From Elusimicrobiota bacterium (GTDB lineage: Bacteria > Elusimicrobiota > Elusimicrobia > Elusimicrobiales > UBA9959), in contig WOVA01000006.1 in the NCBI GenBank assembly GCA_009773155.1, positions 1 to 56,292 on the forward strand: DNA of 56,292 bases, in the 5' to 3' direction. The notes beneath the pieces were generated by a model that did not search any database, was not told where the DNA came from, and saw only the letters and a program-made list of their open reading frames with translations. This document shows positions 96 to 50,735 of the stretch, piece by piece (position 1 is the stretch's first letter; every line of letters starts with the position of its first letter). The translations under genes and the position numbers were made by a program.

Positions 96-689
96 TTAAA
101 TCTTCGTGCGGCCCTTGAGGGCGTGGCCGAGGGTGACCTCGTCCATGTAGTCCAGGTCGCCGCCGAGCGGCACGCCGTAGGCGATGCGGGTTATCCTGGG
201 GACCAGTTCTTTGGCCAGGCCGCTGATATACATGGCCGTAGCCTCGCCCTCGGTATCGGGGTCCATGGCCAGGATAAGCTCTCTCACTCCGCCCTTGGAC
301 GACTCCAGCCGCTCGAGCAGTTCCTTCAGCCGGATGGACCCGGCGCCGAGGCCTTCCATGGGCGAGATGGCGCCGTGGAGGACATGGTAAAGTCCTTTGA
401 ACGCGCCGGATTTCTCTATCGCGGCGGCGTCCTGCGGCTGCTGCACTACGCATATCACCGAAGCGTCCCTGTTGGGATCGGAGCAGACCGGGCAGACCGG
501 AGTATCGGAATAATCGCAGCAGACGCCGCATTGCGAGACGGAGGTCTTGAGCGCCTTCACCGCCTGCATAAATTCCTCCGTCTCCGGCTCGCTGGAACGC
601 AGCAGGTACATGGCGAAGCGTTCGGCCTGCTTGGGGCCGACGCCGGGAAAGCGGCGGAACGCCGCTATCACCCTGTCGAGGGATTTCAT
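96..689 (-). CDS. recR: Recombination mediator protein RecR
   Basis: RecR acts with RecF/RecO to load RecA on gapped DNA. The 197-residue product has the family length and order: a helix-hairpin-helix region (FPGVGPKQAERFAMYLL, about 14-30), a four-cysteine zinc finger with Cys54, Cys57, Cys66 and Cys69, and a Toprim domain from about residue 76, including AMDPDTEGEAT. The reading frame continues upstream to 791, but the start at 689 (MKSLDRV) is chosen because it gives the conserved N terminus and overlaps the dnaX stop by ATGA. That overlap indicates translational coupling in the common dnaX-recR arrangement. Identification is secure. Confidence 0.97.
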   Translation of the reverse strand: MKSLDRVIAAFRRFPGVGPKQAERFAMYLLRSSEPETEEFMQAVKALKTSVSQCGVCCDYSDTPVCPVCSDPNRDASVICVVQQPQDAAAIEKSGAFKGLYHVLHGAISPMEGLGAGSIRLKELLERLESSKGGVRELILAMDPDTEGEATAMYISGLAKELVPRITRIAYGVPLGGDLDYMDEVTLGHALKGRTKI

Positions 690-2473
690 TTGAGTTTTTT
701 GATGCTGGTTATCTTGCCGTGGAAGACTTTCGCAAGTTTTTTTATCTCGGGGTCCGACTCCACGGCGTCGCCGGGTTCCAGGTCTACCCACTGGGTCCCG
801 GAAGGCGGGCGCGCCGCCGCTGCGGCCGCGGCTTCCGCGGGAGGCTCGTCCTGACCGGCCTCCTCGTTGGAAAGTTCCTCGACGTGCGGGGGCGGAGCCG
901 CGGCCTTCTCCGTCTTTATTACTACTTTGGAGCCGCAGATGGACTCGAGCCTGGCCTCCAGGTCCGCCTTGTTGCGGTCGACATTGTCCAGGTTGTACTT
1001 ATTGTCGGAAGAAACTTTCCAGAGCCCGTCGGAGCCGAAGGTCACGCGGACGGAAAGCATTATATTGTAGAGCAGCGGTTTGTTCCGCGAAAGCTGTCCC
1101 AGCAGCGTCTTCCAGGCCGCGGCGTGATCGGCCGCGCAGGAAGGGGACGGTACGGGGACACCATGCCGCATGGTGTCCCCCGCTGATGCGGCGGGGCGCG
1201 GGGCCTGGGGCTGAACGGCGGCGGGAGCCGGGGAGAACGGCCGGATCAGGGCGGCATTGTCCGCAGTCGGTGCCGGGAGCACTGCGACCGGTCGGGCTAT
1301 TTCAGGGCTTTTTTTTTCACCGGGGACACCATTCCGCATGGTGTCCCCCGTATACTCCGCCCCCTCCACTGCCTCGAGTCTGCGCACCAGGTTCTCGAGG
1401 TCCAGCGGGGCTTCTATGAGGGTAAAAAGAGCTATCTCGGCGGCTACGGCCTGCATATCGGAGAAGCGTATCTCCTCGAGCACAGGGTTGAGCTTGCGCG
1501 AGAGCTTGGCCAGCGCCGCGGGCGCGGCGCCGGAAGCCGCGAGGTCCTTTGCGGCCGGTGAGGCGGAAGGAGCGAAGCCCTGGGCGGCGAAGAAGGCCTC
1601 GGAGAAAAGATTGCGCAGGTCGCGCAGGGCCACCAGCGGGTCATAGCCCTCGCCGTTGAGCTTCTCGAAAGAGGCGTGCAGGGCGGCGGCGTCGCGGTTG
1701 AGCACAGCCCTGGCCACGGAGACCACCAGGTCCTCGCGGGCGTGGCCCAGCAGCTCGCTGACCGAGGACGCCGTCACGGCTCCGCCGGAGAAAGAGGCGC
1801 CGCGGTCGAGCATGGTAAGCGCGTCGCGCATGGCGCCGCCAGAGGCCCGGGCGATAAGGCGCAGCGCCTCGGGCTCGGTCTTGAGCTTCTCTTTGGACGC
1901 GACATGGGTAAGGCGCTTTATGATCTCGTCCTCGGGTATGGGCCGGAAGCGGAAGCCCTGGCAGCGCGAGACTATCGTAACGGGCACCTTGGACTGCTCG
2001 GTGGTCGCCATGATGAACACGACATGCGCCGGCGGCTCCTCGACGGTCTTGAGCAGCGCGTTGAAGGCGCTGTTCGAGAGCATGTGCACCTCGTCGAGGA
2101 TATAGATTTTGTACTTATCGCGCGAAGGAGCGAAGCCGACGTTCTCTATGATGACCTCGCGCACTTTGTCCACCTGCGTATGCGAGGCCGCGTCTATCTC
2201 CAGCACGTCGAGCGACTTGCTCTCCGCTATCTCCGTGCAGGAGGAGCACTTATTGCAGGGTTTGCCGTCGTCAGTGAGAGCCCGGCAGTTAAGGGTCTTG
2301 GCCAGGATCCTGGCTATCGTCGTCTTGCCGCAGCCGCGGGGGCCGAAGAGCAGGTAGGCGTGGGCGATGCGGCCCAGTTTGACGGCGTTCTCTATGGTGG
2401 TCTTGACCGAGGCCTGGCCGAGGACTTCGTCGAGGTCCTTGGGGCGGTATTTGACGGCGAGGTTCTGGTACAT
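686..2473 (-). CDS. dnaX: DNA polymerase III subunit gamma/tau (DnaX)
   Basis: DnaX is the clamp-loader ATPase of the replisome. The 595-residue protein shows Walker A GPRGCGKT at 44-51, a zinc module with Cys63, Cys73, Cys76 and Cys79, the DEVH box at 127-130 and the SRC sensor at 169-171, followed by domain III. The region after about residue 370 is poorly conserved Pro/Ala-rich linker plus a tau-like C-terminal part. That linker carries three repeat insertions in frame: family A at residues 376-384 (GDTMRNGVP) and 432-440 (GDTMRHGVP), and family B at about 393-411. None interrupts the frame. The start MYQNLAVKYRP is the family N terminus, with a GGAG sequence upstream. Overlaps recR by 4 nt. 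Confidence 0.97.
   Translation of the reverse strand: MYQNLAVKYRPKDLDEVLGQASVKTTIENAVKLGRIAHAYLLFGPRGCGKTTIARILAKTLNCRALTDDGKPCNKCSSCTEIAESKSLDVLEIDAASHTQVDKVREVIIENVGFAPSRDKYKIYILDEVHMLSNSAFNALLKTVEEPPAHVVFIMATTEQSKVPVTIVSRCQGFRFRPIPEDEIIKRLTHVASKEKLKTEPEALRLIARASGGAMRDALTMLDRGASFSGGAVTASSVSELLGHAREDLVVSVARAVLNRDAAALHASFEKLNGEGYDPLVALRDLRNLFSEAFFAAQGFAPSASPAAKDLAASGAAPAALAKLSRKLNPVLEEIRFSDMQAVAAEIALFTLIEAPLDLENLVRRLEAVEGAEYTGDTMRNGVPGEKKSPEIARPVAVLPAPTADNAALIRPFSPAPAAVQPQAPRPAASAGDTMRHGVPVPSPSCAADHAAAWKTLLGQLSRNKPLLYNIMLSVRVTFGSDGLWKVSSDNKYNLDNVDRNKADLEARLESICGSKVVIKTEKAAAPPPHVEELSNEEAGQDEPPAEAAAAAAARPPSGTQWVDLEPGDAVESDPEIKKLAKVFHGKITSIKKLK
1154..1180. repeat. Family A palindrome, copy 1 (inside dnaX)
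   Basis: Perfect 12-bp arms GGGGACACCATG and CATGGTGTCCCC surround a 3-base loop (CCG on the plus strand). At 27 bp it is exactly nine codons. On the dnaX sense strand it reads GDTMRHGVP at residues 432-440. The repeat has no stop codon in any of the six frames. Confidence 0.95.
1242..1296. repeat. Family B repeat, copy 1 (inside dnaX)
   Basis: About 55 bp running from CGGATCAGGGCGGCATT to the region of ACTGCGACCGG on the plus strand. It contains a small hairpin (GCGG / CCGC) followed by an imperfect inverted repeat (GCAGTCGGTGC / GCACTGCGACC). On the dnaX sense strand it encodes APTADNAALIRP. It recurs at 35664, 46324 and 47852. Exact ends are uncertain by a few bases. Confidence 0.9.
1322..1348. 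repeat. Family A palindrome, copy 2 (inside dnaX)
   Basis: Same 27-bp element as copy 1, with one arm mismatch (ACCATT instead of ACCATG in the left arm). It reads GDTMRNGVP at dnaX residues 376-384, in exactly the frame used by copy 1. Confidence 0.93.
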
Positions 2474-5526: not shown

Positions 5527-8500
5527 TTATTTGCCGTCCGCCAGGCTACCGCAGATGCCGCCGCTGTAGGCGGTGCGCCGCCACTCGCCGTAAGGAACTA
5601 TCTGCCCCACGGCCGAAGTCATGGTTATGCCGGCGGAAACACCGGATCGCTGAACTCCCAGGTTGAAGCCGGTGGATTCGGTGTACATAGCAGGCTTGTC
5701 CACCTTGAGCGAGGTAGATGTCACGCGCCACTTGTCGGCGGAGTTCCTCTCGCATAGCAACTCGAAGTCCACGTTGTAGTTGCTCTGGGCGCTACCGCGG
5801 TAGCCCTTGTGGCTGGCGCCGTCGTTGGTCCTGGCGGCCACCATCCGCACTATATCCCCGCCGGAAGCGGTGTTGCCGGCCGAATTATAGCCCAGCTTGT
5901 AGGTGGCCGTGAAGAACTTCTTTTTGCAGTCCGCCTTGGCGCTGGACAGGGTATGGAAGTTTACAAGGGAGAGGGCGCCTTCGAAGAAACCGCCTATCTC
6001 GTTCTCGCAGATCTCATTCCTTCTGGCGGTTGACAGATTCTGGCCGCGGTACTTGCTGTATATCCTATCGTTCGCCCGGCCTATCACGCCCGAGCCGGAG
6101 TATATGCCGGCGAACGTGGAAGGACTGATGGGCGTCCAAGTCTGGATGAGATAGAAAGAACTGACGGTGCCGCAACCTTCCCTGTTCTCCCAGCAGTTGG
6201 CGGACTCCGGCGGCTTGACTACCGGCGGCTTGGGCGGTTTCGGCGGCTTAGGCGGCTTGGGCGTCTCGGGCGGCTTGGGCGCCTGCTCCGGCGGCTTGGG
6301 CGCCTGCTCCGGCGGCTTGGGCGCCTGCTCCGGCGGCTTGGGCGCCTGCTCCGGCGGCTTGGGTGCCTGCTCCGGCGGCTTGGCGGGCGCGGGTACGTGG
6401 GGCTTGAGCTGATCTTCCCACCCCTTTATCTTACTGGTGACATCGACCGCGATTCCGTCCAGCACCGGGGCGCCCTTCATGTTGTCTATGTCCCACGGCA
6501 GCTCCAGATGCGCGCGCATACCGACGGAGATTATCTCCTGGGGCAGTTCGCGCTCGGCATTGGCCGCGGGATCGTAACCGGGGACATTGATCTTATGCCT
6601 GGGGCTGATCTCGCGCCAAAGCGCGCTCTCCACTTCCTTGGTGCGCTTATCGTCAATTTCTCTGGAGTTCCAGAACTTCCCGGTATCCATACCGCGGAAG
6701 GATACCATGTCTTCAGTATAAGCCTGGGCCGCCTGGCCCTCCCGGGCTCCGGGCGACATCCGGAAGTCTTTCGGGAAGTCAACTAAGTTGGTCAGGGTCA
6801 TTCCGGGGGCCGGTGCAGGGGCCGGGGGCGGGTCCGCGCGGGGAGTGAAGTTTGTCTCCTTGCCCGTCAGTTCCTTGAATATCCCAACAATCTTACGCTC
6901 ATCACCGGGAGTCAGGCTACTGCTGAGCCAGCCGACCTTATCGATAAACTCCTTGAGCTCCCCTCCCTTGCCGTCCTCGCCCACCAGCTTCGCGCCCCTG
7001 TTATAGGCTTCCACGGAGACGCCATTGATGGCGACGGACTTTTGTTCCACCTTGCCGATCTGGGCGGTGTAGAGCTTGGCCGCCGCATCGTGATATTTGA
7101 CGCGCATGTCGGCGGAAGAAACCGCGGATCTGGCCTGAGCGACCTCAATCCTCAACGACTTGATGATCTCGGTCAACTTCAGGTCCTCTATTATGCCGGC
7201 CTGGCCGTCGGCAGTCTGGCCGGGCTTATTGGCCCCGGCGAGGCCATCGAGCGTCTTGGTGAATCCATCCAACTGTTCGTTTGCCTTAGCGACCTGTGTC
7301 TTGGCTGTCGCGATGTTTTTCTGGTAGGCGCCCAACGGCTCCCGCAAGGCGGCGGCTTTGTTGATGCAGGGCTGAGCGTGCCTGATGTAGTAGCTCTTGG
7401 AGGCGGCCATCATACCGGCCGCCACCTTGACGGTGTTCTTGAGCAGGTCCTTCGCACTCTCCGCGGCCTGGCCGTTTATAACTCCATCGGCCATATCCTT
7501 GAGAGCGGGGTCGAGTTCGTTCTTCAGGAATTGCACGGTGTCCGGCTGCAGGTTGGTGGACGGGATGGGAGAATTGACGCCCGGCGTAGCGCCGCTCGGG
7601 GTGGAGCCGGTGCCGCCGGTGCCGCTGCCGAAGAATCCCGTCGGCAGTGCACCGCAGGGGCATGCCCTGTTGGCATTCCAGGATTTATGGACCTCCGGAT
7701 CGCTGGAGGGGGGGTAATCGGTCGTCCTGTTATCTTCACGGCAGTGTTTCTTATCCGGGTCCACCATCCGCCAGCATATATACGCAATCGGGGCGCTGCC
7801 TCTCTGGCCCGTCAGATCGTTGGTAAGGGACTCCGCGAATTTGGTCAGGCTGGTGCCCACGCCGGAAAGGACGGCCTCTATGAGTTTCTTGGGGATCTCG
7901 TACTTCTTGTACATCTCCCACTCGAGCGCCTTCTCCGCGCGCTTGCGGTTGAGCATCTCCGCCAGGGATTCCTTGGGAGAATGCGATTTCTGGTCGCGGG
8001 CGCTGCTATTGGAGGGGGACTTGGTCTTGTCGCCGTCCTTGCCGCCGCCCATGCCGCCGTCGCCGGCGCCCGCGTTGACGGAAGCGGCCGCGGCCTGGTC
8101 GAGGCCCTTGACGGCGCTGCCGGTGGTGAAGTTGTCGGCCGCGGCGCCGGCCTGCGCGCGCAGCTTCTCAAAAGCCCCGCGCGAAGCGCTGTTGGGGGTC
8201 ATAGCCACGCCTTTGTAGCCGGCCGCGGCTATGGGGCCGACCATGGAGCGGGAAGCGGCCTTTGAGGAGGCTTTCTTCGCGTCTTCACTTATCTTACCTC
8301 CGCCCGGGCCGCCGGAAGTCCTGCTGCCCTCGCCGCCGCCGAAGAAGGAGCTCATGCCACGCAGGCCGGACTGCATCTTGGGAATGACGGTAGGCGCGCC
8401 GCCCGATTTTACGGCCGCGGAGAAGGCCTCGCGCCCGGCGTCGCGCACGGTATCGCGCAGACTGCTGCCGGGCGGCGCGGAAGGCATCGGCGGGGGCGCC

Positions 8501-8910
8501 GGCTTGGCCGCTCCCAGTATCAGCGAGAGCGGGTCGCGGGCGCTGAGCGGCACTATCACCTCGCCGCTGCCGTCGGGCGAACCCTGGCTGAGCCCGTGGA
8601 TCCCTGGCTCGTAGATGGAGGAACCGTCGCCAATCCCGCGGGAGCCGAAGCCCGCGGTGAGCGTATTGTCCATCGGGGGGCGCGACATCATGTATTCGGC
8701 GACTGGCGCCATGATCAGCGCGCTCAGGCCCAGGACGACCAGGCCGAGGTCGCGGCGGGAAAGGCCCTTTATCCTCTCCATGATGCCGCCGGCGGCCTTC
8801 GAGAAAGCGGGGGCTTTGCCGAAGGTGCTGGATTTGCGGAACGAGGGACCCTGACGGCCCAGCACGGGGGGTACCGTGTTGCGTTCCTCTTTATCATTAT
8901 TAAAGCTCAT
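5527..8910 (-). CDS. P1: very large membrane-anchored Gly/Ser/Pro-rich protein, unknown family
   Basis: A 1127-residue protein, the last of six related genes. It has a basic N-terminal stub, one membrane segment (about 54-71, LGLVVLGLSALIMAPVAE) and a long presumably periplasmic part: a low-complexity Gly/Ser/Ala region with VIPKMQ (175-180), a helical section rich in Ala, Lys and Gln (roughly 500-640), a Pro-rich hinge of five KPPEQAP repeats followed by PKPP repeats (about 843-897), and a C-terminal Cys-containing domain (CWENREGC ... GGICGSLADGK). The IPKM motif and layout recur in P4 and P5. The start at 8910 follows GGAGG by a few bases; the frame is open to 8952. I recognise no known domain. 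A strong terminator follows. Confidence 0.8.
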   Translation of the reverse strand: MSFNNDKEERNTVPPVLGRQGPSFRKSSTFGKAPAFSKAAGGIMERIKGLSRRDLGLVVLGLSALIMAPVAEYMMSRPPMDNTLTAGFGSRGIGDGSSIYEPGIHGLSQGSPDGSGEVIVPLSARDPLSLILGAAKPAPPPMPSAPPGSSLRDTVRDAGREAFSAAVKSGGAPTVIPKMQSGLRGMSSFFGGGEGSRTSGGPGGGKISEDAKKASSKAASRSMVGPIAAAGYKGVAMTPNSASRGAFEKLRAQAGAAADNFTTGSAVKGLDQAAAASVNAGAGDGGMGGGKDGDKTKSPSNSSARDQKSHSPKESLAEMLNRKRAEKALEWEMYKKYEIPKKLIEAVLSGVGTSLTKFAESLTNDLTGQRGSAPIAYICWRMVDPDKKHCREDNRTTDYPPSSDPEVHKSWNANRACPCGALPTGFFGSGTGGTGSTPSGATPGVNSPIPSTNLQPDTVQFLKNELDPALKDMADGVINGQAAESAKDLLKNTVKVAAGMMAASKSYYIRHAQPCINKAAALREPLGAYQKNIATAKTQVAKANEQLDGFTKTLDGLAGANKPGQTADGQAGIIEDLKLTEIIKSLRIEVAQARSAVSSADMRVKYHDAAAKLYTAQIGKVEQKSVAINGVSVEAYNRGAKLVGEDGKGGELKEFIDKVGWLSSSLTPGDERKIVGIFKELTGKETNFTPRADPPPAPAPAPGMTLTNLVDFPKDFRMSPGAREGQAAQAYTEDMVSFRGMDTGKFWNSREIDDKRTKEVESALWREISPRHKINVPGYDPAANAERELPQEIISVGMRAHLELPWDIDNMKGAPVLDGIAVDVTSKIKGWEDQLKPHVPAPAKPPEQAPKPPEQAPKPPEQAPKPPEQAPKPPEQAPKPPETPKPPKPPKPPKPPVVKPPESANCWENREGCGTVSSFYLIQTWTPISPSTFAGIYSGSGVIGRANDRIYSKYRGQNLSTARRNEICENEIGGFFEGALSLVNFHTLSSAKADCKKKFFTATYKLGYNSAGNTASGGDIVRMVAARTNDGASHKGYRGSAQSNYNVDFELLCERNSADKWRVTSTSLKVDKPAMYTESTGFNLGVQRSGVSAGITMTSAVGQIVPYGEWRRTAYSGGICGSLADGK
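6272..6383. repeat. 21-bp tandem repeat encoding KPPEQAP units
   Basis: About five near-identical copies of a 21-bp unit (CCTGCTCCGGCGGCTTGGGCG on the plus strand, its exact phase arbitrary) lie head to tail in P1, each encoding seven residues. Shorter PKPP-coding repeats continue to about 6222. Copy number is likely variable between strains through slippage, always in frame. Confidence 0.85.
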
Positions 8911-9000
8911 ATATCCTCCGAAAGGGCGCCTTTTGCCGAATATGAAAAACACTTCGCAGGGTATGCATGACCTTCTGGATCAGCCGCCACTGCTCGCCAT

Positions 9001-9029: not shown

Positions 9030-9101
9030 GTGTCATTCGTCCTATACGCGCCTGGGCCCTATGGCCCTGGCAGAATCAAAAACCCGGCCGCCTGCGGTAC
9101 T

Positions 9102-9126
9102 GGGACACCATGCCGCATGGTGTCCC
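9102..9126. repeat. Family A palindrome, copy 3 (between P2 and P1)
   Basis: GGGACACCATG and CATGGTGTCCC around CCG. The outermost G/C pair of the 27-bp form is lost, leaving 25 bp. It is intergenic. Confidence 0.93.
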
Positions 9127-9268
9127 TCCCTGAGGCCGCGTAGGGAGCGCATCCCGCCGCCAGTGGCGGACGGGTCCGCAGCGCTCTCGCCGCCAGCCTC
9201 CAGCAAGGGCCGGGCCGAGACCAACTTCACATTACCGAGACTCACAAAAAATCCCACAGCGGGCCGCA

Positions 9269-10868: not shown

Positions 10869-10895
10869 GGGGACACCATGCGGCATGGTGTCCCC
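10869..10895. repeat. Family A palindrome, copy 4 (between P3 and P2)
   Basis: Perfect 27-bp copy with loop CGG, filling nearly all of the 59-base gap between the P3 stop and the P2 start and ending about 20 bases before the P2 start codon. A transcript across it could form a 12-bp hairpin beside the P2 ribosome site. Confidence 0.95.
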
Positions 10896-31084: not shown

Positions 31085-31140
31085 AAGCCCGCGGTCAGGC
31101 CTGCCGGTCGCCGGTCTCGGAACAACGAGCCCCCGGCTCA

Positions 31141-32172
31141 TCAGGTGCCGGGCGCTATGTCGCCGGTCCCGAAGATCACTTCCGAATTCTCCCCCACGTT
31201 GAGCTTGTAGCGGCGGCCCAGGACCACCGCGCTCGGGCCTATCAGCGAGCCGGCCAGGTTGATGTCCGAGACCTGGGCCTCCTCGTTTATTATCGAGTCC
31301 GAGATTATCGACCGCTCTATCCGGCAGCCGGGCCCGACGGAGACGTGCGGGCCGATTATGGAATCGCGCACCTCCGCGCCGGGGGCGATATAGACCGGCG
31401 GCACTATCAGGGTGCCGGACGCCTTGGGGACACTGTGCCGCATGGTGCCCCCGGCCCCGCGGCCGAGTATAAAACGGTTGGTCTCCAGCAGCGTCTCGGG
31501 CTTGCCGCAGTCGTACCAGCCCTCTATCTTTACCGGCTTTATCCGGTGCCCTCTCCTGACCATCATGGCCATGGCGTCGGTGAACTGTATCTCGCCCCTG
31601 GTGGTGGTCCCGGAATCAACCAGGCGCTGCAGGCTGCCGTAGAGCTGCGAGGAATTGCGGAAGGAATAGATGCCGACGATGGCCAGGTTGGTGCGCGGCT
31701 TCTCCGGCTTCTCGACCATGGCCGAGATATAGCCATTCTTCACCTCGACGACGCCGAAGCGGCGCGGATCGGGCACTTCCTTGACCGCGATGCAGTCCTC
31801 GCGGCCGCCCAGGAACTTCGACAGGTCGGCCGAGAGGATGGTGTCGCCCAGCATCACCAGCATCGGCCCCGTCACCCTGCTGCGCGTCATCCAGATCGCG
31901 TGGCCCAGGCCCTTGGGCTCGGGCTGCTCCACATAGTCCACGTCCAGGCCCGGGTAGGCGGAGGAAACATAGGTCTTTATCTTGTCGCCCAGGTAGCCCG
32001 TGACCATGCAGATCTTCTTTATGCCGGCGGCGGCCAGATCGTCGAGGATATGCCCGATTATGGGTTTATTGCCCACGGTGAGGAGTACCTTGGGATAAGT
32101 ATAAGTGTGAGGGCGCAGCCTGGTGCCGGCGCCGGCTACGGGAACCACGGCGGTAAAATCGCTTTTCTTCAT
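31141..32172 (-). CDS. Sugar-1-phosphate nucleotidyltransferase with left-handed beta-helix tail
   Basis: A 343-residue enzyme of the glucose-1-phosphate thymidylyl/uridylyltransferase group. The N-terminal Rossmann domain has VVPVAGAGTRLRPHTYTYPK, the nucleotide loop and the Lys that contacts phosphate; VMLGDTIL is the metal site. From about residue 252 a hexapeptide-repeat beta-helix follows (GTLIVPPVYIAPGAEVRDS, then IIGPHVSVGPGC). A degenerate family A palindrome encodes GGTMRHSVP at residues 241-249, exactly in the linker between the two domains. The product is a nucleotide sugar for surface glycans. AGGGGAGG precedes the start. Confidence 0.88.
   Translation of the reverse strand: MKKSDFTAVVPVAGAGTRLRPHTYTYPKVLLTVGNKPIIGHILDDLAAAGIKKICMVTGYLGDKIKTYVSSAYPGLDVDYVEQPEPKGLGHAIWMTRSRVTGPMLVMLGDTILSADLSKFLGGREDCIAVKEVPDPRRFGVVEVKNGYISAMVEKPEKPRTNLAIVGIYSFRNSSQLYGSLQRLVDSGTTTRGEIQFTDAMAMMVRRGHRIKPVKIEGWYDCGKPETLLETNRFILGRGAGGTMRHSVPKASGTLIVPPVYIAPGAEVRDSIIGPHVSVGPGCRIERSIISDSIINEEAQVSDINLAGSLIGPSAVVLGRRYKLNVGENSEVIFGTGDIAPGT
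31426..31452. repeat. Family A palindrome, copy 5 (degenerate, inside the nucleotidyltransferase gene)
   Basis: GGGGACACTGTG, CCG, CATGGTGCCCCC: three differences from the consensus. It keeps the 27-base length and the frame used in the other genes, reading GGTMRHSVP. Its decay suggests an older insertion. Confidence 0.85.
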
Positions 32173-33414: not shown

Positions 33415-33696
33415 CTACACCAGCGCGGCGGCCCCCAGCAGCGCCAGCACGACGAAGGCGGAGAGGGCGAAGAGATACTGGCGGGCGCGCGCGTAGCCGT
33501 AGAAGAGCGCCGCCACTCTGGCGGCCGGAGTGACCAGAAGGATCAGTACGCCCGTGCGCGAGAACGTCTCGCCTGCCGGGGCGCCGCGCCAGGCGGCTCC
33601 GAGCAGGAAACAGAGCGCGCTGAGCAGCACGCCCGCCTGCAGGACGCGCTGTATCAGTTTTGAAAGGTCCTTCTCGGAGTAAGTCTCTTTCACCAT
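33415..33696 (-). CDS. Small membrane protein of the DUF1634 type
   Basis: A 93-residue protein with three hydrophobic segments (about 18-34, 46-62 and 72-92) and the layout of DUF1634 proteins, which are commonly encoded next to TauE/SafE permeases. Here it overlaps the TauE/SafE gene by 7 nt, which supports the assignment. It may be an accessory subunit of that permease; function otherwise unknown. Confidence 0.8.
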   Translation of the reverse strand: MVKETYSEKDLSKLIQRVLQAGVLLSALCFLLGAAWRGAPAGETFSRTGVLILLVTPAARVAALFYGYARARQYLFALSAFVVLALLGAAALV

Positions 33697-34538
33697 ATCA
33701 GCATCTTCACCGCTATTATCAGCAGCGCGGCCGAGAAAACCATCTGCAGCCTCTCGGACCTGGCCTTATAGAGGAGGCTCATGCCGGCGAAAGAGCCGAT
33801 CAGAACTCCTGCCACTATGACGCCGCAGATGTCCGCGGGGATATGCCCCTTGCGGTAATAGACGAAGGCGCTGGCCGCCGCGGAGACGCCTATCATGAAA
33901 TTGCTTGTGGCGGCCGCGGCCTTCATCGGCACGCCGCAGAGCATGGTCATTACGGGGACCTGCACCACGCCGCCGCCCAGCCCCAGCAGGCCGCTGAGGC
34001 CCCCGCCGAAAAAGGAAAGGAATGACGCCGGCAGGACGTTCTTAACGGAATAACTTCTGCGGCCGTTCATCGAGTGGTCGAAGAACTCCGAGTCGAATGA
34101 AGAGGGATGAGAGGGGACACCATGCCGCATGGTGTCCCCGGGAGCGGCGCGCAGAGCCGCCCTCCCCCTGAAAAACATGGAGAAAGATATCGGCAGGAGC
34201 GCCAGGGCGAAGGCCGTCTGCAGAACACCGGCGGGCAGCCGGCTGGCGATGAGCGCCGAGAACAGGGAACCCAGCGCCATCGTGGTCTCGAAGACTATGC
34301 CGAGGCGGAGGTTGGTAAGGCCGCGCTCCACGTTGACCGAAGCGACCGCGCTGGAAGCGGCGGCGATGGCGACAAGGGAGGCCCCGATGGCCTGGTGAAT
34401 GGGCAGGCCGAAAGCCAGCGTAAGCAGCGGCACGGTGAAGACGCCGCCGCCTATGCCCAGCGCGGAACCGAGCACCCCGACGAAAACGCCGAAACCGCCG
34501 AGCAGCAGCGAGCCCTGCAGGGAATGCGGGTCCATCAT
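33690..34538 (-). CDS. TauE/SafE family permease
   Basis: A 282-residue membrane protein with about eight helices and the duplicated TauE/SafE motif: GSALGIGGGVFTVPLL in the first half and GLLGLGGGVVQVPVMT in the second. The family exports sulfite, sulfoacetate and similar anions. A family A palindrome encodes GDTMRHGVP at residues 134-142, in the loop between the two halves. The start at 34538 overlaps the patatin stop (ATGATG over TGA); the frame extends to 34607 without support. It is coupled downstream to the DUF1634 gene. Confidence 0.9.
   Translation of the reverse strand: MMDPHSLQGSLLLGGFGVFVGVLGSALGIGGGVFTVPLLTLAFGLPIHQAIGASLVAIAAASSAVASVNVERGLTNLRLGIVFETTMALGSLFSALIASRLPAGVLQTAFALALLPISFSMFFRGRAALRAAPGDTMRHGVPSHPSSFDSEFFDHSMNGRRSYSVKNVLPASFLSFFGGGLSGLLGLGGGVVQVPVMTMLCGVPMKAAAATSNFMIGVSAAASAFVYYRKGHIPADICGVIVAGVLIGSFAGMSLLYKARSERLQMVFSAALLIIAVKMLIW
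34113..34139. repeat. Family A palindrome, copy 6 (inside the TauE/SafE gene)
   Basis: Perfect 27-bp copy, loop CCG on the plus strand, in frame as GDTMRHGVP on the gene's sense strand, between the two symmetrical membrane halves of the permease. Confidence 0.95.
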
Positions 34539-35538: not shown

Positions 35539-36057
35539 ATGAACTTTATCTACACCGCCGCCGCCATGTTCCTCTTCTGGCTCGCCCTTTCGGGCCAGTT
35601 CACGGGCCTGCTGCTGGCTTCCGGGGCCGCCGCCGCCGTCTTCGTCGCCGCCCTCGCGCGCGGCGGATCAGGGCGGCATTCGCCGCAGTCGGTGCCGGAA
35701 GCACTGCGACCGGCCGGACCCGCGCTGCCCGGGCCCACGTTCCTGCTGCGCCTGGCGGCCTACCTGCCCTGGCTCTGCTGGCAGATAGTCCTCTCCAGCC
35801 TGGACGTGGCCTACCGGGTCCTGCACCCGGCTCGGCCTATCGATCCCCGCGTCATAAAGATAAAGAACCCCTGCCGCACGCCGCTGGGCACGGCCCTGCT
35901 GGCCAATTCCATAACCCTCACGCCCGGCACCGTCACGCTGGAGGTCGGCCCCGCCGAACTGGTGGTGCACTCGCTCTCCGCTGAGTCGGCCGCCTCGCTG
36001 CAGGCGGGCGGGATGCAGCGCCGGGTGCTCCGCGTCGAAGGGGACTCCCGTGTTTGA
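35539..36057 (+). CDS. mnhE: Na+/H+ antiporter subunit E (MnhE/MrpE; MbhA-like)
   Basis: A 172-residue subunit of an Mrp-type antiporter. It shows two N-terminal membrane segments (7-23 and 24-40), a third region (FLLRLAAYLPWLCWQIVLSSLDVAYRVL, quoted in parts as LPWLCWQIV and LDVAYRVL) and the conserved cytoplasmic part with NSITLTPGTVTLEV. A family B repeat encodes about residues 42-60 (GRHSPQSVPEALRPAG), a loop after the second helix; removing it would give the usual length near 155. The start at 35539 (MNFIYTAAAM) is the family start; the frame extends to 35467. First gene of a ten-gene operon. Confidence 0.88.
   Translation: MNFIYTAAAMFLFWLALSGQFTGLLLASGAAAAVFVAALARGGSGRHSPQSVPEALRPAGPALPGPTFLLRLAAYLPWLCWQIVLSSLDVAYRVLHPARPIDPRVIKIKNPCRTPLGTALLANSITLTPGTVTLEVGPAELVVHSLSAESAASLQAGGMQRRVLRVEGDSRV
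35664..35718. repeat. Family B repeat, copy 2 (inside mnhE)
   Basis: About 55 bp, in the orientation reading GRHSPQSVPEALRPAG, opposite to the orientation used in dnaX and glcF. It contains the GCGGC-ATTC-GCCGC hairpin. Confidence 0.92.
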
Positions 36058-44426: not shown

Positions 44427-46501
44427 TGTTCAGAAAAGACCGCCTCGGCGGCACGCTGGAAGGACTGAAACGGATAGCCGGGGAAGACAATGTCTTCACC
44501 GGCGAGGCCGACATACTCGCCTATTCCTACGACGCCGGATCGGCCCGGGCCAGGCCCGACGCCGTGGTGCGGGTGGACGCCGCGGATAAAGTCGCGCCGC
44601 TGGTGAAACTGCTCTACGGCGCGGGCGTGCCTTTCCTGCCCCGCCTGGCCGGCACCAATCTTTCCGGAGGCACCATCCCGCTTAAGGGCGGCGTGATACT
44701 GAACCTCTCCTCCCTGAATAAAATACGCTCGATAGACACGGCGGCGGGCGTCGCCGTCGTGGAGCCCGGCGTGGTCAACCTCAAACTCCAGGAAGAACTG
44801 GCGAAGGCCGGCTTCTTCTACCCGCCGGATCCCGCCAGCCAGAAAGTGTGCACGATAGGCGGCAATATCGGCGAGAACGCCGGCGGGCCGCTCTGCCTGA
44901 AGTACGGCGTCACCGCCGACAATGTCCTGGGCCTGACCGTGGTCACGCCGCAGGGCGAGACGCTGGAGATATCCACGGATGATCCGGGACCCGACCTGCC
45001 CGGACTCTTCACCGGCTCCGAGGGGACCCTCGGGATAGCTATATACGCCCGGCTGAGGATACTCCCCCTGCCGAAGAACATAATAACCGCGGTCTGCTCC
45101 TTCGCCTCCGTGGACGACGCCATGAAAGCCGTGGCGGCCACTATCGCCTCGGGCATAGTGCCGCGCGCGCTGGAGGCGATGGACCGGGTCTCGCTGGACG
45201 CCGCCGGCGGCGGCGGGCTGGAACTTTCGGACAGGACCGGGGCAGTGCTCATAATCGAGCTCGACGGCAATTCCCGGCGCGACCTCGAGAAGGAGATGGC
45301 GGAAATAAGGGCTTTCGCCGCGGCGGCAGGATCGCTTGATTTCCGTGAAACGGCTGACAACGCCGAGCGCGAGGTTCTCTGGGCCGCCCGCAAGGGCGCC
45401 TACCCGGCGCTGGCCAGGCTGGCGCCGAACGTGATGGTGGAGGACGGGGCCGTGCCGCGGCCGAAACTGCCGCGGGCCGCCGCCGAGGTGAGGAGGATAC
45501 TCTCCGACTATAAACTGACGGCGGGGCTCCTCTTCCACGCCGGCGACGGCAACCTCCATCCCAACGTAATTTACGACGAGCGGGACATAGAGGAGACGCG
45601 GCGCGTGCGCAAGGCGGGCCACGAGATACTGCGCGCCTGCATAGACCTGGGCGGCACCATCTCCGGCGAGCACGGCGTGGGAGTAGAGAAGCGCCTGGCG
45701 ATGAACTGGCTCTACGACCGGGCCGAGCTGGAACTTTTTTCGCGCGTAAAAGAAGCCCTGGACCCTAAAGACCTCGCCAATCCGGACAAGATAATACCCG
45801 TCTCCGACCGCCACGCCCGCAGGAAGGACGCGGCCCCGGCCGCCCGCTCCGCCGCGGCTTCGGCGCTCATAACCGAGCTGAAGTACCGCGCGGCCCACGG
45901 GATAAAGTCCCGCGTCAAGGGACTGGGGACCCGCCTCGCCTCCCCCGGGGGAGAAGCGGCGGGGCGGGACCTCGACGTGTCCGGGCTGAAGTCCGTCGTC
46001 GAGATCTACGGCGACAACCTGACCGCGACCTTCGAGGCCGGCATACCGCTGCGCACGCTGCGCTCGGAACTCAAGGCCGTCGGCCTGGAAGTCCCCATGC
46101 CCAAGCTCGACGGGACGCTCGGAGGGCTCATAGCGACGAAGGCCTGGGCCGGAATACGCGACCTGCTGCTGGGGCTGGAACTGGCCCTGCCGGACGGCAC
46201 CGTCTGCCGCCTCGGCGGAAAGTCGGTCAAGAACGTGGCGGGCTACGACCTGACCCGGCTGCTCTGCGGCTCGCTGGGAGCTTACGGAGTCATACTTTCG
46301 GCGACCATACGGCTCTGCCCCGCCGGAACAGGGCGGCATTCGCCGCAGTCGGTGCCGGGTGCTCTGCGCCCGGCCGGCAAGTCCCCCCGCTTCCCGCACG
46401 CGGAAAGCCGCGCCACCGGATTCGTTCCGTCGGACATCCACCGGCGGCTCAAGAAAGCTTTCGACCCGGAGAACCTGCTGAACCCCTGGATATACGGCTG
46501 A
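44426..46501 (+). CDS. glcD: FAD-linked oxidase: GlcD fused to a shortened GlcE-like domain
   Basis: A 691-residue protein. Residues 1 to about 465 are a complete D-lactate/glycolate dehydrogenase GlcD (FLPRLAGTNLSGGTIPL FAD loop, given in part; CTIGGNIGENAGGP; LFHAGDGNLHPN; GGTISGEHGVGVEKR). Residues about 480-632 are a second FAD-binding domain like GlcE (TLGGLIATKAWAGIRDLLLG, GKSVKNVAGYDLTRLLCGS). After it, where GlcE normally has its cap domain, a family B repeat encodes residues 633-651, followed by only about 40 residues ending FDPENLLNPWIYG. So the cap appears deleted at the repeat. It oxidises a 2-hydroxy acid and passes electrons to GlcF. The start at 44426 overlaps the tnaA stop. 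Confidence 0.88.
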   Translation: MFRKDRLGGTLEGLKRIAGEDNVFTGEADILAYSYDAGSARARPDAVVRVDAADKVAPLVKLLYGAGVPFLPRLAGTNLSGGTIPLKGGVILNLSSLNKIRSIDTAAGVAVVEPGVVNLKLQEELAKAGFFYPPDPASQKVCTIGGNIGENAGGPLCLKYGVTADNVLGLTVVTPQGETLEISTDDPGPDLPGLFTGSEGTLGIAIYARLRILPLPKNIITAVCSFASVDDAMKAVAATIASGIVPRALEAMDRVSLDAAGGGGLELSDRTGAVLIIELDGNSRRDLEKEMAEIRAFAAAAGSLDFRETADNAEREVLWAARKGAYPALARLAPNVMVEDGAVPRPKLPRAAAEVRRILSDYKLTAGLLFHAGDGNLHPNVIYDERDIEETRRVRKAGHEILRACIDLGGTISGEHGVGVEKRLAMNWLYDRAELELFSRVKEALDPKDLANPDKIIPVSDRHARRKDAAPAARSAAASALITELKYRAAHGIKSRVKGLGTRLASPGGEAAGRDLDVSGLKSVVEIYGDNLTATFEAGIPLRTLRSELKAVGLEVPMPKLDGTLGGLIATKAWAGIRDLLLGLELALPDGTVCRLGGKSVKNVAGYDLTRLLCGSLGAYGVILSATIRLCPAGTGRHSPQSVPGALRPAGKSPRFPHAESRATGFVPSDIHRRLKKAFDPENLLNPWIYG
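46324..46378. repeat. Family B repeat, copy 3 (inside glcD)
   Basis: About 55 bp, reading GTGRHSPQSVPGALRPAG, the same orientation as in mnhE. It lies at the boundary where the GlcE-like domain loses similarity. Confidence 0.92.
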
Positions 46502-46502
46502 T

Positions 46503-47921
46503 ATGAGCAAATACGAAGTCAACGAGATGTACGACGCCCACGCGGAGGGCGAGCTTCACCTCCCGTCCCTGCTCACGCACCTGGGAGAGAGGTCGCTCTA
46601 TGACGCCGTCAGCCAGTGCAGCCGCTGCGGTTACTGCGAGACCGTCTGCCCCACCTACATGCTGACCGGGCGGGAACCCATCTCGGCCCGCGGCCGCAAC
46701 CAGCTGGTCCGCATGACGATGGAGGGCAAGGCGCGGGGCGCCGCCTCCGAGTCGCTCGACACCTGCCTGCTCTGCGGCGCCTGCTCCGAGGCCTGTTTCG
46801 CGAAAGTCCCCACGGCCGACATCGTACTGGAGGGCCGCCGCGCGGCGCTGGGTCCCGCCCCGCGCCTCATCCCCGTCCTCCTCTCCCGGCTCATGCTGGA
46901 CAGGCCGGGCCTCTTCGGCTTCCTTCTCAAACTCGGCGCGCTGGCGCGCCGCACCGGCCTGCCCCGCCTTGCGGGAAAGCTGGGATTTTTCCGTATGCTG
47001 GGACTGGGGCCGCTCGAGAAAGCCGAACTGGAAGCCCCGTCCATGCCTCTGACCTTCCTGTCGGAGAAGCTCGCCGCCGACCCGGAACTGTCGGCCGGGA
47101 CCGACGATGAACCGAGAGCCTGGGCCTATTTCGCCCCCTGCGGCCCCAACTACCTCTTCACCGGCGTCGGCGAAGCCACCGTGGCCCTCCTGAAGCGCTT
47201 CCTCGGCCGGGGCGTCTTCTTCCATAACTCCTGCTGCGGCCTGCTGGCCTACAATTACGGCGACATACGCCACGCGCGGGACTTCGCCCGCCGCAACATA
47301 GAGAAGTACGAGGCGCTCAGGGAGCGCCTCGGCGGCGTGAAGATAGTGGGAGACTGCTCCTCCTGCACGGCCTTCATGAAGACCTACGAACAGCTCTTCA
47401 CGGCCGAACCGGAATGGCGGCCGAGGGCCGCCGCCTTCGCCGCCGCCGTACGGGACGCAATAGAAGCCATACCCCCCTCCGCCATGACTCACGCCCCCAA
47501 AGAGACGCTGGCCGAAGCCGGGAGGATAACCTATCACGATTCCTGCCGCGCCTGCCACGGACAGGGCATAAGAACGGAACCCCGGGAAGCACTCAAGACC
47601 CTGGCCGGCAAGCGTTTTACCGAGCTCCCGGAGAGCGACTGGTGCTGCGGCGGGGCGGGCGCTTATTCTTTCACCCAGCCGGAGATGTCGGATAAAATAC
47701 TCAGGCGCAAGACCGCCAATATCGCCTCGGTCAGGGCCGATACCGTGGCCGTCGGAGCCACCTCCTGCCTGCTGCAGATAAACGCCGGCCTGAAGCGCGA
47801 CTACCCTTCCGCCAGGGCCGTCCATTACACCCAGCTCGTGGAAAAACTCACCCGGCCCGTCGCAGAGCTCCGTGCACCGACAGCGGGCAATGCCGCCCTG
47901 ATCCGGCCCCCTGCCAAGTAA
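46503..47921 (+). CDS. glcF: GlcF-type iron-sulfur oxidoreductase subunit
   Basis: A 472-residue protein with two 4Fe-4S motifs near the N terminus (CSRCGYCETVCP, CLLCGACSEACF) and two CCG domains (NSCCGLLAYN with CSSC; CCGGAGAYSF with TSC), the GlcF/LutA-type layout. It accepts electrons from the GlcD flavin. A family B repeat encodes most of the last 22 residues (APTAGNAALIRP), so the native C terminus and stop have been replaced or extended by the repeat. It starts 1 base after the glcD stop. Confidence 0.9.
   Translation: MSKYEVNEMYDAHAEGELHLPSLLTHLGERSLYDAVSQCSRCGYCETVCPTYMLTGREPISARGRNQLVRMTMEGKARGAASESLDTCLLCGACSEACFAKVPTADIVLEGRRAALGPAPRLIPVLLSRLMLDRPGLFGFLLKLGALARRTGLPRLAGKLGFFRMLGLGPLEKAELEAPSMPLTFLSEKLAADPELSAGTDDEPRAWAYFAPCGPNYLFTGVGEATVALLKRFLGRGVFFHNSCCGLLAYNYGDIRHARDFARRNIEKYEALRERLGGVKIVGDCSSCTAFMKTYEQLFTAEPEWRPRAAAFAAAVRDAIEAIPPSAMTHAPKETLAEAGRITYHDSCRACHGQGIRTEPREALKTLAGKRFTELPESDWCCGGAGAYSFTQPEMSDKILRRKTANIASVRADTVAVGATSCLLQINAGLKRDYPSARAVHYTQLVEKLTRPVAELRAPTAGNAALIRPPAK
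47852..47906. repeat. Family B repeat, copy 4 (end of glcF)
   Basis: Reverse-orientation copy reading APTAGNAALIRP, the same peptide as in dnaX (APTADNAALIRP). It forms the glcF C terminus. Confidence 0.9.
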
Positions 47922-50587: not shown

Positions 50588-50735
50588 TTATTGACCTACG
50601 CGTAAGTAATAGAAATGCTGGCCGGGCCGATTTTGGAGCGAGACAAGGAACGAGGAGCGCGCATAGCGGGGGCTATGTAAGCGACTCTCAAATCCAAGCC
50701 TCCAGAAATTCTATTACTTACGCGTAGGTCAATAA
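50588..50735. mobile_element. 148-bp MITE-like element with 27-bp perfect terminal inverted repeats
   Basis: The left arm 50588-50614 begins TTATTGACCTACGCGTAAGT and the right arm 50709-50735 is its exact reverse complement over all 27 bases. The 94-base interior is itself partly self-complementary, with a central CATAGC / GCTATG stem, so the whole element can fold into one long hairpin. It encodes no protein. The arms contain the palindrome TACGCGTA. It abuts the lipoprotein start. The remaining bases to 50855 show nothing I can name. Confidence 0.82.

Follow-up and report, generated by a model that had tools for sequence, protein, structure and literature searches.

Palindromic repeats in the dnaX linker of an Elusimicrobiota bacterium belong to two genome-wide families of probable mobile elements

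The dnaX gene of an Elusimicrobiota bacterium carries two copies of one palindromic repeat (family A, here A1 and A2) and one copy of a second repeat (family B) within its linker. These inserts are real, lineage-specific, and in frame. They are one instance of a genome-wide pattern, of a kind that is already known but new to this phylum. We consider it very probable that A and B are mobile hairpins that sit mostly in genes, in frame, where they would be read as amino acids, and that the dnaX linker took up three of them successively. The gene lies in a stretch of 56,292 nt, the whole of which is called the window below. The features of dnaX are as follows.

686-2473, minus strand: dnaX, the host gene, 595 amino acids (ORF; Pfam DNA_pol3_delta2, DNAX_ATPase_lid, and DNA_pol3_gamma3)
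1322-1348, minus strand: family A copy A2, residues 376-384, a palindrome with one mismatch (pattern scan, alignment)
1309-1317, minus strand: A9 run, predicted gamma/tau slippage site (sequence, comparison with other dnaX genes)
1302-1304, minus strand: TGA in the -1 frame just past the A9 run (sequence)
1239-1296, plus strand: family B copy, antisense to dnaX; its 51-bp unit, 1244-1294, corresponds to residues 394-410
1154-1180, minus strand: copy A1 of family A, residues 432-440, in the longer form with asymmetric flanks; shared with the relative G003 (pattern scan, relatives)

All three inserts (A2, B, and A1) are in frame and free of stops. The preliminary description had placed two A copies and one B copy at DnaX residues 376-440, and our coordinates and residues match. 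It had also held that the essential ATPase core is spared, and indeed the AAA+ core and domain III (residues 233-354 by Pfam) are untouched, with the inserts lying beyond them at 376-440. DnaX did not prove to be a special case, as copies occur in 112 gene models of our sample. Of these, 93 have one copy and 14 have two; dnaX is one of 4 with three, and a single model has five, every one of those five belonging to family A. Some of the 112 models are cut at locus ends.

The history of the inserts was followed in two close relatives that are syntenic with the window (G001 and G002) and in a further relative compared at dnaX (G003). The comparison supports the earlier reading of the inserts as insertions from two separate repeat families. 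In G001 and G002, A1, B, and A2 are all absent from dnaX; in G003, A1 is present with the same flank, and B and A2 are absent. Because G003 has A1 without B and A2, A1 came first. Judged from these comparisons, A1 is the older insert, whereas this genome alone has B and A2. The linker would thus have taken the three in turn, A1 and then B and A2 in this lineage, and they would persist because the linker tolerates them. The G003 gene also lacks ~42 nt beside the B site, so that the dnaX B copy has no clean empty site. Likewise, A2 is no simple insertion, since in the alignment to relatives ~21 nt are replaced by 27. In G003 the contig breaks off within A1 of dnaX (L041:2678-2704), and repeats of this sort may break assemblies.

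The possibility of a nearby frameshift site yielding gamma had been raised, and a likely one lies between A2 and B. The sense strand between the two reads GAAAAAAAAAGCCCTGA; A2 ends 4 nt upstream of the A9 run, and B begins 14 nt downstream. A run of eight or more A residues, with a stop in each of the other two frames no more than 20 nt away, occurs in 27 of 30 dnaX genes, including that of this genome; the gene of L046, whose ORF was missed by the motif, was left out of the 30 and nonetheless has an A10 run. The A9 run is likely the gamma/tau slippage site by these features of its sequence. In Thermus thermophilus dnaX, gamma is made by slippage on an A9 run, as described in the available portion of the source (PMC1088944), and the likeness extends to the nine As and the nearby stops in other frames. 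Unlike the T. thermophilus site, the one here is predicted from sequence, and mobile repeats flank it in this genome. If slippage occurs as in T. thermophilus, A2 would be present in both gamma and tau, and B and A1 in tau only. DnaX would then offer a built-in comparison, with one insert before and two after the predicted gamma/tau switch.

The inserts could instead be functional and kept by selection, either as a longer or stiffer gamma/tau tether or as hairpins that tune A9 slippage. The close bracketing of the A9 run favors such a role, as does the surrounding RNA, a 131-nt stretch that folds with a z of -2.30 and forms a hairpin to either side of the run. However, the A run and its stops are kept in insert-free relatives, A and B occur in many unrelated proteins as well, and the linker is of ordinary length: 101 amino acids here versus 99 in G001, which has no inserts, and 77 in G002, within a range of 62-126 across the 26 dnaX genes measured. 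We regard a function for the inserts as very unlikely and reject tether lengthening as their purpose; the earlier proposal that the repeats lengthen the clamp-loader tether is accordingly weak. The inserts are probably near-neutral for DnaX and probably translated.

Family A is abundant throughout the genome (2.76 Mb, 93 contigs). When 3 mismatches are allowed, its pattern is matched 12 times in the window over both strands, at 6 places, versus a mean of 0.00 in 100 shuffles. Genome-wide, the strict 27-mer has 39 matches per strand, a 25-mer with up to 2 mismatches has 130 per strand (~130 places), and 63 exact 25-mer cores are present. Our sample comprises 92 distinct copies (up to 3 substitutions) in retrieved stretches, of the ~130 places. 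The 27-mer alone folds with a z of -5.26. A longer asymmetric form, with GTAC (up to 1 mismatch) on one side and CGCTGATGC (up to 3) on the other, is seen in 48 of the 92, and a few copies, judged by eye, are in tandem with a 30-nt unit. Apart from A1 and A2, the copies in the window, to which no strand is assigned, are the following.

9101-9127: intergenic, ~+28 nt relative to G001 and G002
10869-10895: intergenic
31426-31452: degenerate copy in gene 31141-32172
34113-34139: in a TauE/SafE-family gene, 33690-34538

At A sites inside genes, the net change relative to relatives is a multiple of three in 35 of 41 comparisons. These changes span -18 to +72, so A is not a fixed-length insertion. 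One copy (L086) is common to G001, in diverged form. The wide spread, together with A2 and the copy at 34113 (each swapping ~21 nt for a net +6), would suit an origin in place, by repeat-templated replacement such as gene conversion between palindromes, instead of by insertion. Several A sites, however, show a net gain of 18-33 nt where the surrounding sequence is well conserved, and the same asymmetric flanks recur in 48 of 92 copies, as expected of a defined longer element. We therefore think replacement unlikely and favor insertion, though a less precise one than that of B.

Family B has 88 places in this genome (up to 3 mismatches), of which four are in the window, and the retrieved stretches yielded 88 distinct copies. 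The unit is 51 nt in 62 copies, 102 in 9, 99 in 4, and 156 in 1 (12 are without a size), and all these sizes are multiples of three. A CG dinucleotide precedes the unit in 86 of the 88 copies. Five copies have the next copy at exactly 51 nt. Within the long forms lies another repeat, C, which occurs at 17 places genome-wide; one C copy lies in the window at 31118-31147 (minus strand), and elsewhere C is nested in long B copies. Also in the window, between genes, is an inverted repeat (50588-50735) with two 51-nt arms that are 80% complementary and 46 nt apart.

The terminal hairpin of B covaries. Pairs 31-45 and 32-44 (counted from 0) rank top by mutual information over 61 distinct rows. In 40 of the 62 copies sized at 51 nt, 98.8% of the stem cells are paired, and double-sided changes number 20 cells versus 3.8 in shuffles (a control weakened by the rows being related copies) and at most 1 in slid structures. 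One B copy folded as DNA forms a three-way junction (z -2.35), and the coding strand of the dnaX B copy folds no better than shuffles (z -0.27). Among distinct B units, 29 of 55 are open in all six frames, versus 10% of random 51-mers and 17% of GC-matched 51-mers of the window; the stops that do occur are nearly all in one reverse frame.

Empty sites for B are precise. Alignments read by eye reveal an exact 51-nt gap in G001 and/or G002 at 10 of 12 alignable genic sites, the exceptions being the dnaX copy and a copy nested in A; whole-span differences at B sites may depart from 51 through indels elsewhere. At two intergenic B sites, no clean gap was found. Three B copies sit exactly within an A palindrome, so that A serves as an independent empty site for B. 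Besides the dnaX copy, the window has the following three B units, and at each of them both G001 and G002 show a gap of exactly 51 nt.

35666-35716, plus strand: in an MNHE (Na+/H+ antiporter subunit) gene
46326-46376, plus strand: in an FAD-linked oxidase gene
47853-47903, minus strand: in gene 46503-47921, close to its C-terminal end

Both families are nearly absent outside the genus, each occurring in 5 of 61 genomes. Family A (up to 1 mismatch, forward matches in this genome) has 98 matches here, 4 in G001, 7 in G002, 10 in G003, and 1 in G031; family B (looser pattern, up to 1 mismatch) has 83 here, 3 in G001, 9 in G002, 2 in G003, and 20 in G007, which belongs to another genus. In the contigs of 84,980 species, a set from which the source genome may be absent, the exact B core matched 5 stretches, all from Elusimicrobia/Elusimicrobiales. 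G007 has three B units in tandem at 51-nt spacing. The matching stretch (L203:2714-3997, minus strand), from another Elusimicrobia MAG, shows the three tandem units to be in frame within a single ORF.

Most copies reside in genes, as called with a codon model trained on 225 ORFs. Inside genes are 68 of the 92 A copies (7 partial, 17 intergenic) and 70 of the 88 B copies (5 partial, 13 intergenic). Coding sequence makes up 0.93 of the 127 host loci, and relative to this fraction A and B are depleted from genes (p 1.3e-8 and 3.1e-5), which weighs against the reading that we favor. Genic A copies are in phase 0 in 55 of 68 cases, phase 2 in 10, and phase 1 in 3, and genic B copies are in phase 1 in 48 of 70, in calls that favor open frames and could miss gene-breaking copies. 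The content of A, P, G, and S residues near the sites is 0.466 for family A and 0.407 for family B, versus 0.342 and 0.346 elsewhere in those proteins. Since sites are enriched in such stretches, linkers do collect A and B.

A Pfam scan of 40 of the 112 host proteins gave 36 with a family match, and by comparison of positions a copy lies inside the best-matched stretch in 11 of these. The 11 are MNHE, CTP_transf_3 (presumably a KdsB-type protein), glycosyltransferase 2, metallophosphatase, Polysacc_synt, amine oxidase, the HflX GTPase, LpxC, TauE, the TRAM domain of what we take to be a MiaB-like protein, and Prismane. Copies lie between domains in UvrC (two in tandem), CysS, and Memo/AMMECR1, among others. 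The host with five A copies is a 711-amino acid protein without a Pfam match (L131:3-2135, minus strand), and its copies are mostly in A/P-rich stretches. A tandem 21-bp repeat encoding PPEQAPK units is found at 6205-6404, within a 1141-amino acid ORF (5527-8952).

Antisense B copies avoid the frame in which they would bear a stop (2 of 33). The codon phase of the CG target was considered as the cause of the frame bias of B and fits same-strand copies only (p 0.24); the bias of antisense copies is unexplained by CG codon position (p 1.5e-8, or 1.2e-4 when stops are allowed for). The avoidance of stops bears on whether B might be bypassed by ribosomes or spliced out, leaving the proteins unaltered. 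A bypassed gap might be short, GC-rich, and folded, and B is all of these, with its three-way junction. Yet every sized copy (51, 99, 102, or 156 nt) is a multiple of three, antisense copies shun the stop-bearing frame, and for the 18 B copies outside gene models, taking B out brought back no spanning gene that scored clearly better (L014 was ambiguous). We reject ribosomal bypassing on these lengths, this avoidance, and the removal test, and find removal or skipping of the inserts hardly credible.

We thus return to A and B as small, non-autonomous mobile hairpin elements that would have spread through the genome, with most surviving copies in genes, in frame and stop-free, and apparently read as extra amino acids. 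B would move as an exact 51-nt unit, entering after CG and recognized as a folded single strand; A would be a palindrome of REP-like character that inserts less precisely. That an enzyme of the HUH/Y1 type or another kind moves them as folded single-stranded DNA is a tentative proposal, to which we give a little less than an even chance. In the genome, no transposase gene was found with A or B at its ends. The genome has three Y1 genes, which carry other palindromes, and none was seen flanked by A in the 93-contig assembly. Two of them adjoin palindromes that also start with GGGGACA (L006 1420-2150 and L008 1945-1995), which may hint at related repeat systems. Y1 genes occur in 33 of 61 genomes; because many of these are without A or B, the presence of Y1 is by itself uninformative, and a Y1 transposase as the carrier of A or B was set aside.

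Other sources were rejected as well. The long B form matched none of 50,697 phage and 72,556 plasmid records (E 0.01), viral contigs scanned for exact A and B sequences gave no match, and the repeats match no RNA family in Rfam. A broader possibility, which we find rather less likely than not, is that B with its nested C is a gene-dwelling mobile element, exact in its 3n length, nearly stop-free in five of six frames, frame-preserving, prone to tandem arrangement and nesting, and recognized as a folded strand by a novel enzyme, and that it edits the Elusimicrobiota proteome 17 residues at a time.

Most descriptions of protein-coding palindromes so far concern Rickettsia, Wolbachia, and scattered REP families, and the literature matches listed include no report of such elements in Elusimicrobiota. 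The present genome, which comes from a distant phylum and combines two abundant families with clean empty sites in close relatives and with hosts of the LpxC, KdsB, HflX, CysS, and DnaX types, is a natural data set that bears on the tolerance of core proteins to insertion and on how such elements move.

The closest known kinds are the Rickettsia palindromic elements (RPEs) and the intragenic REPs. RPEs are protein-coding palindromes attributed to Ogata et al. 2000 and 2002 in the excerpts available (PMC10969869, PMC3767692, PMC2996958), which describe in-frame insertion in Rickettsia genes (PMC10969869, PMC3767692) and cite such palindromes also for Wolbachia and Methanocaldococcus (PMC2996958). 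Like RPEs as portrayed there, A and B are dispersed in-frame palindromes in unrelated genes (replication, repair, and tRNA-related enzymes), with several families per genome. As in RPEs, hairpins present in many copies lie within unrelated genes without breaking their frame (of the A copies 68 of 92 are genic, of the B copies 70 of 88) and orthologues lack the insert (the exact gap at 10 of 12 B sites, with A less clean). Unlike RPEs, given in the same excerpts as ~100-150 bp, A is 27 bp and B is 51 bp, with only the long B forms reaching 99-156 nt; the phylum differs, B has an exact fixed net length, and the likeness drawn here is one of description.

REPs offer the second comparison. Intragenic GTAG-/CGTC-tagged REPs occur several per gene and are proposed to lie in flexible linkers or loops, according to the available part of PMC3733652. 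A and B resemble them as short palindromes that are at times several per gene (PMC3733652), and A, at 27 bp and ~130 places, is a multicopy palindrome within the 20-50 nt expected of a REP. Unlike the intragenic REPs described there, A has no GTAG at its foot (0 of 92 copies) and a GTAC flank in about half; its copies are mostly genic, and those outside genes (17 intergenic, 7 partial) are the minority, whereas REPs are mostly extragenic. REP transposases cut folded single strands, as stated in the accessible text of PMC8266576, and A and B are hairpins of the kind recognized as folded single-stranded DNA in the REP/TnpA-REP (RAYT) system, in a genome that has Y1 genes. Unlike that system, as far as these excerpts portray it, this genome yielded no Y1 gene with A or B at its borders, and B is longer, with two hairpins and a covarying stem. 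What is new here is a known kind of element in a new phylum, with an unusual precision in the case of B.
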